DNA of 21,941 nt, from positions 1 to 21,941 of the IMG/VR virus record IMGVR_UViG_3300032285_001251; one strand, given 5' to 3'. Source of the stretch: a virus. This document shows, in pieces, positions 11,916 through 21,915 of the stretch; within the stretch, counting starts at the first letter, position 1; every line of letters begins with the position of its first letter. Made by a program: the position numbers and the translations under genes. The notes under the pieces are model-generated. The model searched no databases. It was not told where the DNA came from and saw nothing but the letters and a program-made list of their open reading frames with translations.

Positions 11916-12456
11916 TATGCTATCTTTGACCGATGAAAACAAATACTTTTTTGTAAATGAGTTGAAGAAAGAATTGTGTGAGAGATTTAAAACATCAGTA
12001 GAAGAATTACCGGAGTTATATGGTTATGCTAAACCGTGGAGTTTACTTAATTTAGTAGAAAATGGTAGCATAGATTCTTATCACTTGTTATATGTTAATG
12101 ACAAAATTTGGACGGGCAGTGGCGGAATGATTAGAGAATTTTGCGGAGAAAAAGTATACCAATCAGGGTTCCGTGCATTTTCAGTGCAAGAACATCGTCA
12201 TACTGGATTGGGTGTAAATGCATATATGCACCAACATAGTTCTACACTTCATATTACTAGAGCCAAATTGCTTGAATGTACTAAAGTATTATGGTCTTTT
12301 GATCCGCATAACTATAGACTATTTCAAGTAAATCACAGATACTTAATTCCAAAAGCATTTCCAAACTATAAGTTTATAATACATGAGGAGTTAACTGAGT
12401 TCAATTATTCTCCTCAACACTTGATAATTCTAGACTTGATGGAAAATTCTGTATAA
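11902..12456 (+). CDS. GNAT-like acetyltransferase (tentative)
   Basis: This 184-aa protein has a central segment QSGFRAFSVQEHRHTGLGV (about 88-106). The strand, EHRHTGLG turn and following helix resemble the acetyl-CoA loop of GNATs, and the later FQVNHRYLIP resembles the family's C-terminal strand. The match is looser than in the 98-712 gene. The start could also be ATG 11917, which lies just after the upstream stop. A perfect late promoter box lies at its end, overlapping nothing essential. Confidence 0.4.
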   Translation: MDKIDMLSLTDENKYFFVNELKKELCERFKTSVEELPELYGYAKPWSLLNLVENGSIDSYHLLYVNDKIWTGSGGMIREFCGEKVYQSGFRAFSVQEHRHTGLGVNAYMHQHSSTLHITRAKLLECTKVLWSFDPHNYRLFQVNHRYLIPKAFPNYKFIIHEELTEFNYSPQHLIILDLMENSV

Positions 12457-12459
12457 ATA
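12452..12459 (+). promoter_or_regulatory. perfect T4-type late promoter box, 4 nt from ATG
   Basis: TATAAATA is followed by CAGA and ATG 12464. The box overlaps the stop codon of the upstream gene. There is no Shine-Dalgarno for the desaturase gene. Confidence 0.65.
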
Positions 12460-12463
12460 CAGA

Positions 12464-13165
12464 ATGACATACAAGCAAAAACTCCTAACCACTCAAGTAT
12501 ACATTCACATTCTGTTCATCGCGGGATTGATAATGTTCCCATGGTATATAACTATACCCACAATTATACTGAGTCAAGTTGTATATTCGGGTCTTTGCGG
12601 AACAGTATTATTTCATAGAGTAGCAACACACAAAAACGCTATTAACCCGATTGCTGAAAAGGTATTAATTTTACTATCTTGGTTGGGGGCAACCTCATCC
12701 GCCCTTGCTTGGGCAGGCGCGCATAGAAAACATCATAGATATAGCGATACTGATAAAGACCCGCATAGCCCTATTAAAATGGGTAAATTTAGAGCGTATT
12801 GGCAACTATCAAAAAACGACACTGATATAATTCGTTATGTTCCTGATTTGTTAAGAAAACCATGGTACTTGTTTCAACATAAACATTATTTTGTTGTATT
12901 GTATGTGATACATATATTGGGATTTGTTTTACTCCCGTTACAAGTATACTGGATGTTGTTAATTGTCCCAGGATTCTTAATGTGGTTTACTGGAAGCATG
13001 GTTAATTGTTTATGCCACAGTGATGCTGGTCCAATCAACAATGCTATATTGAGTGTGTTATTAGTGGGCGAAGGAATGCACCTTAATCACCATGAAGAAC
13101 CTGCTAACCCTGACTTCAGAGATGGAACTGATTGGGGATACAAACTCTATACCTTAGTAAAATGA
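12464..13165 (+). CDS. membrane fatty-acid desaturase
   Basis: This 233-aa integral membrane protein has the three histidine boxes of acyl desaturases: H51-RVAT-H56, H87-RK-H90-H91 and H206-LN-H209-H210, which bind the di-iron centre. Hydrophobic pairs at about 10-50 and 140-180 are likely membrane segments. It would introduce a double bond (delta-9-type fold) into host membrane lipids, perhaps adjusting fluidity during infection. Typical bacterial homologues are longer. Its stop overlaps the next start (ATGA), linking it to two oxygenase-like genes. Confidence 0.85.
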   Translation: MTYKQKLLTTQVYIHILFIAGLIMFPWYITIPTIILSQVVYSGLCGTVLFHRVATHKNAINPIAEKVLILLSWLGATSSALAWAGAHRKHHRYSDTDKDPHSPIKMGKFRAYWQLSKNDTDIIRYVPDLLRKPWYLFQHKHYFVVLYVIHILGFVLLPLQVYWMLLIVPGFLMWFTGSMVNCLCHSDAGPINNAILSVLLVGEGMHLNHHEEPANPDFRDGTDWGYKLYTLVK

Positions 13166-16317: not shown

Positions 16318-16520
16318 TAGTTAAGAAGATAGTGTGTTATAGGAAACGAGATCCTAGTCTGCACTTTAAACATGGACGAATGGGCGGCCTAGAGGATGAA
16401 GTCTCTTTTGTGAGATGAAAAATTCTAGCGTATTAAAGCATTCTCTAGCCGAAAGGTGACAAGTGGGTACGCACCCATGTAGTGTGCTTTAATACACGCA
16501 TTAGAAATAGTGCGTTAATA
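16318..16520 (+). ncRNA. structured leader RNA of the tRNA operon (novel candidate)
   Basis: About 200 nt without a convincing ORF lie between the promoter and the first tRNA. Clear helices are TAGGA/TCCTA near 16340-16356, CTAGA/TCTAG with inner TCTC/GAGA, a 10-bp stem TATTAAAGCA (16432-16441)/TGCTTTAATA (16485-16494) enclosing TGGGT/ACCCA and a CC-GAAA-GG hairpin, and ACGCATTA-GAAA-TAGTGCGT (16496-16515). Two GAAA tetraloops and compensating wobble pairs argue for a folded RNA. T4 carries unexplained stable RNAs (species 1 and 2) in its tRNA cluster, and this may be an analogue. No known family is recognised. Confidence 0.6.
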
Positions 16521-16526
16521 ATTTAT

Positions 16527-16600
16527 TGGGGCATTGTGTAATGGTAGCACAACAGACTTTGACTCTGTTAGCCTAGGTTCAATCCCTAGTGCCCCTGCCA
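16527..16600 (+). tRNA. tRNA-Gln (anticodon TTG)
   Basis: Cloverleaf with acceptor GGGGCA/TGCCCC and an unpaired U1-U72, like the weak first pair of bacterial tRNA-Gln. The anticodon loop is CTTTGAC, the T arm CTAGG-TTCAATC-CCTAG, discriminator G, and CCA is encoded. Confidence 0.92.
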
Positions 16601-16605
16601 GTTTT

Positions 16606-16661
16606 AGGATACTTTCAGCAAAATTAAAAACTTTTCGTATGGTGAAAAAAAAGCGTATCCT
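16606..16661 (+). ncRNA. hairpin element between tRNA-Gln and tRNA-Arg
   Basis: AGGATAC (16606-16612) pairs perfectly with GTATCCT (16655-16661) around an A-rich 42-nt interior. It fills almost the whole 71-nt gap between two tRNA genes. It may guide RNase processing or be a small stable RNA. Confidence 0.45.
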
Positions 16662-16671
16662 GTTTTATTAT

Positions 16672-16752: not shown

Positions 16753-16826
16753 GCTCTTTTAGTATAAAGGTATTATAATACATTGGTAATGTATAGACAC
16801 TGGATCGTTACCAGTAAGGAGCACCA
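16753..16826 (+). tRNA. tRNA-Thr (anticodon GGT)
   Basis: Acceptor GCTCTTT/AAGGAGC, anticodon stem ATACA/TGTAT with loop TTGGTAA, T arm ACTGG-ATCGTTA-CCAGT, encoded CCA. The D stem is weak. Its CCA bases also form the start of the outer stem of the next structured RNA. Confidence 0.88.
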
Positions 16827-16928
16827 TATAAAAACACATTCTGAAACCTGTAGAGTCGTACAGCGGAATGCATAGTCAGGGTATGAGCTGGTATCTGGGA
16901 GATACGACCTGAATGTGTTTCTATATGG
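16824..16928 (+). ncRNA. structured RNA cassette 1 between tRNA-Thr and tRNA-Met
   Basis: An outer stem pairs 16824-16830 with 16922-16928 (7 bp) and 16832-16841 with 16911-16920 (10 bp) around one A-C mismatch. The 69-nt core holds CTGTA/TACAG and GTATC/GATAC hairpins. Its outer stem is nearly identical to that of the next element, while the core differs completely. No known family is recognised. Confidence 0.6.
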
Positions 16929-16933
16929 TAATT

Positions 16934-17010
16934 ATATAAAAACACATTGTCCTAGGCTGTGACCTAGTCCATCAGAAGTCCTTAGAGACAGAAGCAATGT
17001 GTTTCTATAT
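16934..17010 (+). ncRNA. structured RNA cassette 2, twin of cassette 1
   Basis: ATATA (16934-16938) pairs with 17006-17010, and AAACACATTG (16940-16949) pairs with 16995-17004, with the same A-C mismatch as in cassette 1. The 45-nt core contains the hairpin CTAGG-CTGTGA-CCTAG. The stem ends exactly at the first base of tRNA-Met, suggesting that processing of the tRNA and of this RNA are linked. Confidence 0.6.
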
Positions 17011-17086
17011 GGTAATATAGCATAGTGGCTAATGCAACTGCTTCATACGCAGTCTATCGTTGGTTCGAGTCCAACTATTACCACCA
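17011..17086 (+). tRNA. tRNA-Met (anticodon CAT)
   Basis: Acceptor GGTAATA/TATTACC, anticodon ACTGC-TTCATAC-GCAGT, T arm GTTGG-TTCGAGT-CCAAC, encoded CCA. The paired 1-72 end argues for an elongator (or lysidine-modified Ile2) rather than an initiator tRNA. Confidence 0.92.
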
Positions 17087-17087
17087 A

Positions 17088-17249
17088 TTAAAGATTATTG
17101 ATAAAGCGTAATGCTTTGTTGATATTAGTAAAATATTGTATCTGATACTCACAAAAGTATCTGTCATACACAATCATACAACAAACACCATCAATCAATG
17201 ATAGGTGAAAGTTTAAGCCTCCAGGAGTAACATTCTTGTAGGTTTTCAT
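17088..17249 (-). CDS. 53-aa small protein inside the tRNA array (minus strand)
   Basis: A minus-strand ORF begins MKTYKNVTPGGLNFHLSLID and ends ALRFINNL. It exactly fills the 176-nt gap between tRNA-Met and tRNA-Ile and opposes them. The box AATAAATA lies 5 nt before its ATG with no Shine-Dalgarno, the same arrangement as four larger genes and the 18259 gene here. That makes a real late gene plausible despite its size. It has two adjacent Cys (GVCCMIVYDRYFCEYQ) and no known motif. Confidence 0.5.
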   Translation of the reverse strand: MKTYKNVTPGGLNFHLSLIDGVCCMIVYDRYFCEYQIQYFTNINKALRFINNL

Positions 17250-17254
17250 AATAG

Positions 17255-17262
17255 TATTTATT
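17255..17262 (-). promoter_or_regulatory. T4-type late promoter box, 5 nt from ATG (minus strand)
   Basis: AATAAATA on the minus strand, matching 7 of 8 positions, abuts the first base of tRNA-Ile on the other strand and precedes ATG 17249 by CTATT. Confidence 0.45.
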
Positions 17263-17337
17263 GCCCAGTAGACCGAATGGTGAGGTACCGTCTTGATAAG
17301 GCGGCTGTAGTTGGATCGTAACCAACACTGGGTACCA
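17263..17337 (+). tRNA. tRNA-Ile (anticodon GAT)
   Basis: Acceptor GCCCAGT/ACTGGGT, anticodon CCGTC-TTGATAA-GGCGG, T arm GTTGG-ATCGTAA-CCAAC, encoded CCA. Confidence 0.92.
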
Positions 17338-17346
17338 ATTTTTTAT

Positions 17347-17420
17347 GGGCTGCTAGTATAATGGGATTACCCTAGCCTTGCACGTTAGTTATCGGGGTTC
17401 GATTCCCCGGCGGTCCACCA
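17347..17420 (+). tRNA. tRNA-Ala (anticodon TGC)
   Basis: Acceptor GGGCTGC/GCGGTCC with two G-U pairs, anticodon CTAGC-CTTGCAC-GTTAG, T arm CGGGG-TTCGATT-CCCCG, encoded CCA. Confidence 0.93.
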
Positions 17421-17426
17421 AGTTTA

Positions 17427-17485
17427 TAGGGAGTCACGCAGATGTCCTGCGTTACTTAAACGACCAAGCTGAGCCGGCGTCCCTA
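17427..17485 (+). ncRNA. 59-nt structured RNA between tRNA-Ala and tRNA-Pro
   Basis: TAGGGA (17427-17432) pairs with TCCCTA (17480-17485) like a short acceptor stem, enclosing the perfect hairpin ACGCAG-ATGTC-CTGCGT and a GC-rich segment (CGACCAAGCTGAGCCGGCG). It is too short for a tRNA and has no CCA. Confidence 0.5.
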
Positions 17486-17497
17486 AGAAAGTTTTAT

Positions 17498-17576: not shown

Positions 17577-17582
17577 GTTACT

Positions 17583-17677
17583 GGGGAATACGCTTCAAGG
17601 TGAAGCACCTGTATTCTGTATTAGAATATGTACTGCAAAATCAAACTTGATTGGTTCGATTCCAATATTCCCCGCCA
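17583..17677 (+). tRNA. tRNA-like gene with aberrant anticodon region
   Basis: Acceptor GGGGAAT/ATTCCCC, D arm GCTT-CAAGGTG-AAGC, T arm ATTGG-TTCGATT-CCAAT, discriminator G and encoded CCA are all good. The region between D and T arms is 43 nt and does not give a standard anticodon arm. The best stem, TATTC/GAATA, encloses TGTATTA, which lacks U33 (reading TAT). A shifted arm gives loop CTGTATT (GTA, Tyr) but a mismatched stem. It may be a type II tRNA, an interrupted tRNA or a tRNA-derived RNA. Confidence 0.6.
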
Positions 17678-17932: not shown

Positions 17933-17938
17933 AGTTAC

Positions 17939-17989
17939 GGTCGGCATTGTAGAGTGCTATGCGATACAGGCTCTATGGGTTGACCACCA
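17939..17989 (+). ncRNA. 51-nt mini-tRNA-like RNA ending in ACCA
   Basis: GGTCGGC (17939-17945) pairs over 7 bp with GTTGACC (17979-17985), followed by A and CCA exactly as in a tRNA acceptor end. Inside is a single hairpin, TGTAGAG/CTCTATG, with a 16-nt loop. D and T arms are absent. It could be a remnant of a tRNA or a functional tRNA mimic. Confidence 0.5.
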
Positions 17990-17991
17990 AA

Positions 17992-19055: not shown

Positions 19056-19098
19056 AGAGTAAATACAATTAGTGATAATAGCAGAAAAGGAGTACAAT

Positions 19099-19659
19099 AT
19101 GGCTGTTCTAGCACTAGATATTTCAGGAGTTCCAAGACAATGGATCTCACACGATGATGCAATTACATACCACGCCAAAGATGCGGTAGCATGGAGCATG
19201 GGTGAAATTGTAGCAAAGTATCGCGGTGGTTTACAAAACTCCGGAGATCAAAGTTATCTTGAAACTTCTAGTATTATCGCTGTGAAAGGTCACGGGTTCA
19301 ACCCTTACAAACATGCTAATGTAGCATTGACTAACAGAACATTGTTTGGACGGGACCGGCAAGTGTGTGCGTATTGTGGTAAACATCACGCTAACTACCA
19401 TCACTTAAGCAGGGACCATATTGTCCCTAAATTTTTAGGTGGCGAAAACACTTGGATGAATGTTGTTACTGCTTGTAAAGAATGTAACAGTAAGAAGGGT
19501 CATAAGACATTGAAGGAAGCCCGCATGGAACTTCTATACACTCCTTATGTACCTAATCATTACGAAAATATGATTTTACAACATCGTAACATTCTAGCTG
19601 ACCAAATGGATTACTTGTTAGCAGGTGTTCCAAAGCATAGCAGAATTTTACTTAATTGA
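19099..19659 (+). CDS. HNH endonuclease
   Basis: This 186-aa protein has a C-terminal HNH nuclease with C90-x2-C93 and C126-x2-C129 zinc knuckles, catalytic-site D106-H107 (SRDHIVPKFLGG), N121 and N130. It cleaves DNA and may act as a free-standing homing or packaging-type nuclease. ATG 19099 is chosen because AAAAGGAG precedes it; a weak late-type box, AGTAAATA, lies at 19058-19065. The stop overlaps the next ATG (TGATG). Confidence 0.85.
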   Translation: MAVLALDISGVPRQWISHDDAITYHAKDAVAWSMGEIVAKYRGGLQNSGDQSYLETSSIIAVKGHGFNPYKHANVALTNRTLFGRDRQVCAYCGKHHANYHHLSRDHIVPKFLGGENTWMNVVTACKECNSKKGHKTLKEARMELLYTPYVPNHYENMILQHRNILADQMDYLLAGVPKHSRILLN

Positions 19660-21380: not shown

Positions 21381-21915
21381 ATTAGTTAAGAGGTTGTTTC
21401 AAAAAGCGAGACACGCTAGCAATAGCAAAAAGTCAAGCAGGAAACATTAAATGAGCAGGTCTCAGCCAAATGTTCTTTAAAATTTAAGAATCATATATCC
21501 CTGTTTAAGTTACAGGGCTCTATATGTAAATGTATTAACAGGGTTACCCACTCCGTTAGGCTGAACGTGATTGTCTTTGGATTAATTTTCGGGTCACTAG
21601 TAGGCATGAAGCAGGGATCTAGAGGATAGGTTGAGGCGACACCAAAGCCAACAGTACTGAAGGGATAGGCATCTCCCGGTTAGCGACGGATTAAACAGTG
21701 GGCTGTAATAAGAGTAAGTCAATTGTAAGCAAGTGGTGTTGCTAATTGCGGTTCTTCCCAGTTAATATGTTTTCATATAGTGATAGTATGCATAAAGCGT
21801 GGGTTCTCAACGAACCTCTGTGCAGAGAACATCTGTCCCGACAGCTCCTGGCGCGGAGTGGACACAGTCGGGGAATAACAGGTCCACCAGGAGGTTCACG
21901 CTTTATGTATATTAT
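21381..21915 (+). ncRNA. large pseudoknotted structured RNA (about 535 nt), novel or GOLLD-like candidate
   Basis: More than 500 nt without a plausible gene follow a strong promoter. The 5' domain has TCAGCC (21462-21467)/GGCTGA (21559-21564) enclosing CATATA-CCCTG/CAGGG-TATATG (21492-21526). The middle has CTTTGG (21575-21580)/CCAAAG (21642-21647). The 3' domain closes with a 13-bp stem, 21789-21801/21897-21909. Inside are GTTCTC/GAGAAC, CTCCTG/CAGGAG and GTGGAC/GTCCAC, with CCCGAC (21837-21842) pairing into the loop at GTCGGG (21867-21872) as a pseudoknot. Size, tRNA neighbours and phage setting recall GOLLD RNA, but I cannot confirm homology. Confidence 0.65.

Follow-up and report, generated by a model that had tools for sequence, protein, structure and literature searches.

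The analysed stretch of DNA (hereafter the window) is an entire IMG/VR virus record, IMGVR_UViG_3300032285_001251, with a length of 21,941 bases. It contains 15 tRNA genes and encodes an endolysin-like protein. An HNH endonuclease gene (PHROG match, 19072-19659) lies within the tRNA array and is a candidate recombination helper there. Two adjoining RNA cassettes with the same outer arms, referred to as twins, are located between the tRNA-Thr(GGT) and tRNA-Met(CAT) genes, and a third cassette was found near the end of the window. The features considered are as follows:

16753..16826, + strand: tRNA-Thr(GGT), the upstream neighbour, with its CCA end inside the stem of cassette 1
16824..16928, + strand: cassette 1 (copy 1), with left arm 16824-16840, core 1 16841-16911, and right arm 16912-16928
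16929..16931, + strand: linker TAA of 3 nt between the twins
16932..17012, + strand: cassette 2 (copy 2), with left arm 16932-16948, core 2 16949-16995, and right arm 16996-17012
17011..17086, + strand: tRNA-Met(CAT), the downstream neighbour
21520..21780, + strand: cassette 3, with outer stem CTATATGTAAA/TTTTCATATAG and a core of more than 200 nt

The left arm (ATATAAAAACACATT) and the right arm (AATGTGTTTCTATATGGTAAT) are identical in copies 1 and 2 and carry the same A-C mismatch, as had been noticed in the sequence-only reading. The core lengths given there (69 and 45 nt) were corrected to 71 nt (16841-16911) and 47 nt (16949-16995) between the exact arms, and the two cores were placed in different sequence clusters, in line with the proposal that they are unrelated. 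The CC of the left arm of cassette 1 is part of the tRNA-Thr CCA, and the GG of the right arm of cassette 2 is the start of tRNA-Met. The right arm followed by GGTAAT has two exact occurrences in the window (0 expected from 100 shuffles), and the one further partial reverse-complement match is the left arm itself. GGTAAT had been read as the start of tRNA-Met after both copies; it is indeed present twice and begins tRNA-Met after copy 2, but after copy 1 it belongs to the linker. Since the junction GGTAATTATAT between the twins was also found between tandem cassettes in other contigs, GGTAAT after copy 1 is no proof of a duplicated tRNA-Met start. Both copies fold as closed stems, copy 1 with a z of -2.99 and copy 2 with z values of -3.76 and -3.57 in two cuts; in a 123-nt cut that takes in the copy 2 left arm, this arm becomes the pairing partner of the copy 1 right arm instead (z -2.55). 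No Rfam 15 model matched over the twin cassettes, even at E up to 5, no GOLLD (RF02032) match was obtained in the window, and no tRNA cloverleaf was detected over core 1 or core 2 by ARAGORN or RF00005.

A near relative, contig IMGVR_UViG_3300032246_000935 (L121), was located via a window protein and shares 82-99% identity with the window across most of the tRNA array. In L121, the tRNA-Thr and tRNA-Met genes are both retained without any cassette and lie only five bases apart (GGAGCACCA-ATCAA-GGTAATATAG), and the stretch from tRNA-Met onward (17011-17425) is 99.8% identical to that of the window. From this empty site, it follows that both twins were gained or lost between otherwise near-identical neighbours. 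At the cassette 3 site, L121 has the same outer stem around a 72-nt core of unlike sequence, with the preceding 100 nt identical and the following sequence almost identical; the same flanks and outer stem thus hold an unrelated core in another genome. The empty site, together with this exchange of a core with the flanks kept, bears out the suggestion that the twins are a duplicated scaffold with exchangeable inserts.

Several other elements were also observed. The cores of about 200 nt (GGGTTACC...CATGAAGC...) found in L048, L072, L074, and the window (21520-21780) appear to form a larger RNA family of their own; no Rfam match was obtained for the copy in the window. Directly 3' of cassette 3, a conserved structured stretch closed by AAAGCGTG/CACGCTTT (21786-21912) is near-identical in L121. 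At 16440-16510, the stem GTATTAAAGCA/TGCTTTAATAC surrounds a short core in the window and a whole open reading frame in L121. The tRNA-Ala/tRNA-Pro spacer (17426-17488) holds an insert of 60-70 nt with the closing stem TAGGGA/TCCCTA, which is another cassette type and is not present in L121. A tRNA-like mini-element of about 50 nt, GGTC...GACC-ACCA (17935-17990), occurs in L121 with some changes and was not called by ARAGORN, and a degenerate tRNA-like element with a GCCA end and a weak tRNA-Sec match (17582-17674, E 0.31) is not in L121.

The search of phage contigs for further copies, which the sequence-only reading had called for, yielded many cassettes with differing cores, mostly beside tRNAs. 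The first scan, with the 15-base left arm in viral contigs, gave at least 144 cassettes in at least 80 of 124 loci, most of them next to tRNAs among the matches listed. Further scans extended the set to at least 623 cassettes from at least 338 loci of IMG/VR phage contigs, including at least 539 non-redundant ones from at least 292 loci. At least 485 distinct cores of 20 nt or longer were obtained, forming at least 275 clusters; 178 of the 485 were singletons among the matches listed, which indicates that sampling is far from saturation. As the scans were seeded, all totals are lower bounds, and the cluster numbers depend on the clustering rule.

The cassettes are built from three parts. The outer stem is characteristic of the site. 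Within it lies a largely shared connector helix, most commonly AAACACATT/ARTGTGTTT, which is usually set off from the outer stem by a mismatched position. The core, drawn from hundreds of families, is about 30-120 nt long, with some examples near 200 nt. The outer stems include CCATAT/ATATGG at many tRNA ends, CTATTCT/AGAATAG behind GOLLD, and CCACCAT/ATAATGG in permuted tmRNA. Among the matches listed, the first bases are the CC of a tRNA CCA in 244 of 539 cassettes, and 79 of 539 are abutted by tRNAs on both sides. The alternative proposal of a tRNA-end duplication holds at most in part. The upstream tRNA does contribute its CCA to the stem, which in some cases closes at the GG of the tRNA that follows, but the GGTAAT behind copy 1 is linker sequence that recurs in other tandem arrays.

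The exact asymmetrical connector (AAACACATT...AGTGTGTTT), searched without an outer-arm filter, had at least 304 occurrences in viral loci. Among the matches listed, 279 of these 304 were within 1.5 kb of a tRNA, all 279 were on the same strand as the tRNA, and 275 of the 279 had an outer stem with at least 6/8 pairs. In cassettes with arms other than CCATAT, the outer stem pairs in 70 of 73 cases (0.96, vs 0.32 with right arms re-dealt to other left arms; among the matches listed). Among the 325 cassettes listed for per-position pairing, the position between the connector and the outer stem is paired in only 0.32 (A-C, C-A, T-T, and others), and the next position outward in 0.99 vs 0.48 expected. 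Because extraction required at least 6/8 outer pairs, the per-position values are biased towards pairing, and because the scans were seeded, the conservation of the connector sequence is partly by construction. A BLAST search with the cores revealed 155 more places outside the seeded arms, many with other inner stems; these places were not sorted, and some look protein-coding. Cores found in other stems indicate that the connector sequence is the commonest, not the sole one.

Among the 32 large cassette contigs, 25 have at least one exact connector pair, and 21 gave a match to Gp23, the T4-type major capsid protein, at E up to 0.001 (20 above the cut-off). The Gp23 scores form two main bands (about 470 and 330 bits), an indication that T4-like phages of more than one lineage are represented. 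A bacterial origin was considered and rejected: a scan of genome_contigs for the symmetrical arm pattern gave at least 118 stretches, in which there were 16 loose candidates, 0 of them near a tRNA, and the single exact asymmetrical connector match among those listed had no tRNA nearby. These few candidates were treated as chance.

To compare cassettes at the same place, 551 cassettes with flanks of 120 nt on both sides were paired at a flank identity of at least 90% on both sides. The resulting 119 allelic pairs among the cassettes listed comprised 94 identical duplicates, 18 pairs with the same core, and 7 with unrelated cores. Unrelated cores were thus found in 7 of 25 non-identical pairs, 6 of which are independent (two share a partner and a core); in the best of them (L091/L339), the flanks are 100% and 99.2% identical. 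A looser pairing (675 'other' and 76 'empty') mixes in paralogous tRNA neighbours and was excluded from the counts. Conversely, among the matches listed, each of the 57 core families represented by three or more cassettes occurred at two or more different flanks, and 55 of the 57 in two or more outer stems.

Both cores of the window were found in other stems and other neighbourhoods, as expected for exchangeable inserts. Core 2, searched with an 18-base probe, is present in 12 other contigs, where it lies behind tRNA-Lys, tRNA-Glu, tRNA-Arg, and tRNA-Gln, inside a permuted tmRNA (L517, RF04321 at 12326-12601), and, in the stem CTATTCT/AGAATAG, downstream of a GOLLD-type end (L512, where the locus breaks off and GOLLD was not called by Rfam). 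In its alignment (A1), the core is near-invariant and the outer stem varies by place; 99.2% of 260 cells are paired, and six pairs are changed on both sides, a result equalled in 0 of 500 shuffles. Five of these six pairs are in the outer stem part, and one (G-C to A-U) is within the core hairpin. Core 1 was found in one other contig (L395), with one difference, in the unrelated stem CCATATTGAAGTGTATT...AGTATACTTCAATATGG after tRNA-Glu. Tandem neighbours within 60 nt had different cores in all 15 non-redundant pairs among the matches listed, and L399 contains a row of at least four cassettes with the same linker, GGTAATTATAT, as between the window twins. A single larger conserved fold without swapping of cores, which had been named as the observation that would refute modularity, is excluded by L121, the allelic pairs, and the cores in other stems. 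As far as comparison of sequences can decide, modular exchange of the cores appears close to certain.

The cores themselves have properties of structured RNA. Of 444 cores with a same-strand tRNA, 333 folded better in the sense orientation and 107 in the antisense orientation (Wilcoxon p 2e-33). In 46 families of at least three cores each, 109 core pairs were changed on both sides, compared with 23.6 in column-shuffled controls; 16 families exceeded their column-shuffle maximum, and the 30 that did not were mostly small or near-identical. The free energy of the cores barely exceeds that of shuffles (mean z -0.54, with 36 of 444 below -2 and 21 above +1), which counts against strong claims on single families and may reflect pseudoknots or small cores. 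T-arm-like hairpins were found in 33 of 444 cores vs 0.45 in shuffles and 1 in reverse complements; this excess indicates that some cores derive from or mimic tRNA. Mimicry of the anticodon arm was rejected as a weak signal (22 of 444 cores vs 13 in reverse complements). The evidence that these hairpins offer on a decoy role is thin. That the cores are functional RNA is considered highly probable.

The same data bear on the possibility that the cassettes are processing spacers, in which the stems merely separate and mature the neighbouring tRNAs and the cores are drifting filler swapped by chance. The near-shuffle free energies, the very many core clusters, the use of the upstream CCA, and the cassettes abutted by tRNAs on both sides are all compatible with such spacers. 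Drifting filler would not, however, leave core 2 invariant at most positions across 13 contigs with many different flanks, produce compensatory changes in core families, or keep core 1 with one change in an unrelated stem, and L121 keeps the neighbouring tRNA genes without a cassette. The spacer explanation is therefore judged unlikely, though it retains some weight.

It was also considered whether the cassettes are miniature mobile DNA elements, whose inverted repeats would be transposon-like ends served in trans by a transposase, an integrase, or a single-stranded-DNA transposase. Terminal inverted repeats, an empty site at a CCA, and the presence of one core at many places would fit such elements. 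They would not account for hundreds of unrelated cores in one stem, the survival of the outer stem through allelic replacement, the common strand with the tRNA (279 of 279 among the matches listed), or outer stems that vary by site and covary, and the single empty site has no target duplication. In addition, searches for the Y1 transposase (PF01797) and the tyrosine integrase (PF00589) were each positive in 0 of 32 large cassette contigs, with control genomes positive for both; neither the transposase of an IS200/IS605-type non-autonomous element nor the integrase of integron cassettes was thus encountered in these contigs, the completeness of which is not known. A mobile-element origin is regarded as very improbable.

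Besides tRNA genes, cassettes occupy sites in permuted tmRNAs and behind GOLLD. In the permuted tmRNAs of L060 and L517, and by flanks only in L086, cassettes are located between the CCA piece and the coding piece, and the tmRNA matches span the cassettes inside them. Phage-encoded permuted tmRNAs were observed in the arrays at L060:812-1112, L431:4209-4458, L510:8946-9183, and L517:12326-12601. Only tRNA, tmRNA, and GOLLD models were represented among the Rfam matches listed in the cassette loci. In 18 cassette-rich loci, all five GOLLD genes were followed by a cassette within 4-6 nt, and the same was found in L043. GOLLD genes with a tRNA inside were noted in L508, L060, L413, L186, L492, and L043, with a cassette 4-6 nt behind in each. 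The GOLLD-type end TATTCTCAG was counted by its exact motif, as a one-mismatch version admits tRNA-Lys ends, and lies just upstream of 18 of 539 cassettes among the matches listed. The idea that the cassettes serve the GOLLD nanocage as tails or cargo is suggested by this adjacency and by the report in PMC12286853 that GOLLD cages may contain tRNAs, but it has only a slight chance of being correct, since the loci examined for GOLLD and tmRNA had been chosen for cassettes, 521 of 539 cassettes had no GOLLD-type end upstream (exact motif, among the matches listed), and the window has no GOLLD match.

Taken on its sequence evidence, the comparison establishes modularity, core exchange at fixed places, gain or loss, and re-use of cores at many places, together with conservation of core structure within families and a fixed tRNA sense strand. 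The twins probably belong to a large class of portable modules of structured RNA that are carried in the tRNA arrays of aquatic, often T4-like, phages. In the proposed mechanism, the site would supply the outer stem and the connector would bear the core. The modules may be co-transcribed with the tRNAs and released through tRNA processing, with the CCA end on the left and an RNase P site on the right, and the stem would shield the module ends. Liberation by tRNA processing is suggested by the position of the modules, which have a CCA end before them and the 5' end of the next RNA behind them; in the absence of expression or processing data, such release is inferred and only somewhat favoured. 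Cores could be moved by short recombination in the arms, perhaps aided by nucleases of the array. As reported in PMC13096335, a T6 homing endonuclease drives short-homology recombination in a tRNA region as a response to a defence that cuts tRNAs; by this analogy alone, the recombination mechanism and an anti-defence setting are both plausible. At E up to 0.001, GIY-YIG nuclease matches were obtained in 8 of 32 cassette contigs, and in 4 of 32 they were above the cut-off; these nucleases would therefore be helpers in some phages at most.

Most speculatively, the released RNAs might target host factors in trans, serving as decoys or inhibitors, e.g., against RNA- or tRNA-directed defence. Such a role would account for the diversity of the cassettes, their rapid exchange, and their location within tRNA arrays. 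In the absence of activity data, an effector or decoy role of the modules is the favoured reading of their function but is unproven, and falls short of an even chance. Marginally more tentative is the wider proposal that the arrays hold a shared, open repertoire of plug-in RNA effectors, processed with tRNAs, arranged in tandem, traded between phages, and each directed against a different host factor or defence. Such a repertoire, comprising hundreds of core families and still far from saturation, would amount to the RNA equivalent of anti-CRISPR or polymorphic-toxin loci.

The cassettes were compared with known systems. Like GOLLD, they are structured phage RNAs of unknown function in or beside tRNA arrays, and in the loci described above, GOLLD lies directly 5' of a cassette; unlike GOLLD, which is one large conserved family, they are short and have many unrelated cores in a common stem. 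The T4 tRNA cluster yields stable non-tRNA RNAs (species 1 and 2, RNA C and D), which are likewise processed from a phage tRNA cluster and are two fixed RNAs of one phage group; we know of no core exchange in a shared stem among them. Y RNAs, defined by their Ro/TROVE partner, have a terminal stem as a handle and variable loop domains, some tRNA-like. They resemble the cassettes in this handle with variable domains and differ in the partner: TROVE/Ro60 (PF05731) was detected in 0 of 32 cassette contigs, so that these contigs gave no sign of a phage-encoded Y RNA partner. Integron gene cassettes are modular cargo swapped at short shared sites in tandem arrays, but the present cassettes carry RNA cores rather than genes, and their large contigs had no integrase (0 of 32). 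Anti-defence phage tRNAs occupy the same genomic place, tRNA arrays being counter-defence loci, and T6 tRNA amplification by a homing endonuclease and microhomology is described in PMC13096335; the cassettes differ in not being tRNAs, although a T-arm-like hairpin is present in 33 of 444 cores.

In a search of named phages (50,697 records), the arms gave weak, chance-like matches in 8 records, and core 1 and core 2 gave none at the sensitivity used. With the whole array as the query, short matches of at most 10% of its length were obtained, mostly to tRNA genes or unannotated sequence, and none of the matches listed lay over the cassettes. The literature search, restricted to open PMC, returned papers on GOLLD and phage tRNAs and no account of exchangeable cores in a shared stem. 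The cassette organisation is apparently a new, undescribed set of small structured RNAs, and we know of no other form of RNA modularity in which unrelated cores are exchanged within a common stem at tRNA, tmRNA, and GOLLD sites. If the cores act in trans, environmental phages would offer a large natural library of compact structured RNAs, pre-sorted by a common handle, whose targets could be determined individually. Even while their function is not known, the cassettes offer a concrete explanation for non-tRNA sequence within the tRNA arrays of phages, and the spacers of these arrays provide a simple route to more of them.

A further spacer type, beginning with GTTTTAGGAT..., is common and was observed in the window (16600-16662) and in tRNA spacers of many loci; TTTAGGAT occurs near the spacer start 72 times among 1186 spacers. 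The stem ends of the GTTTTAGGAT-type spacer change together between the window and L121.
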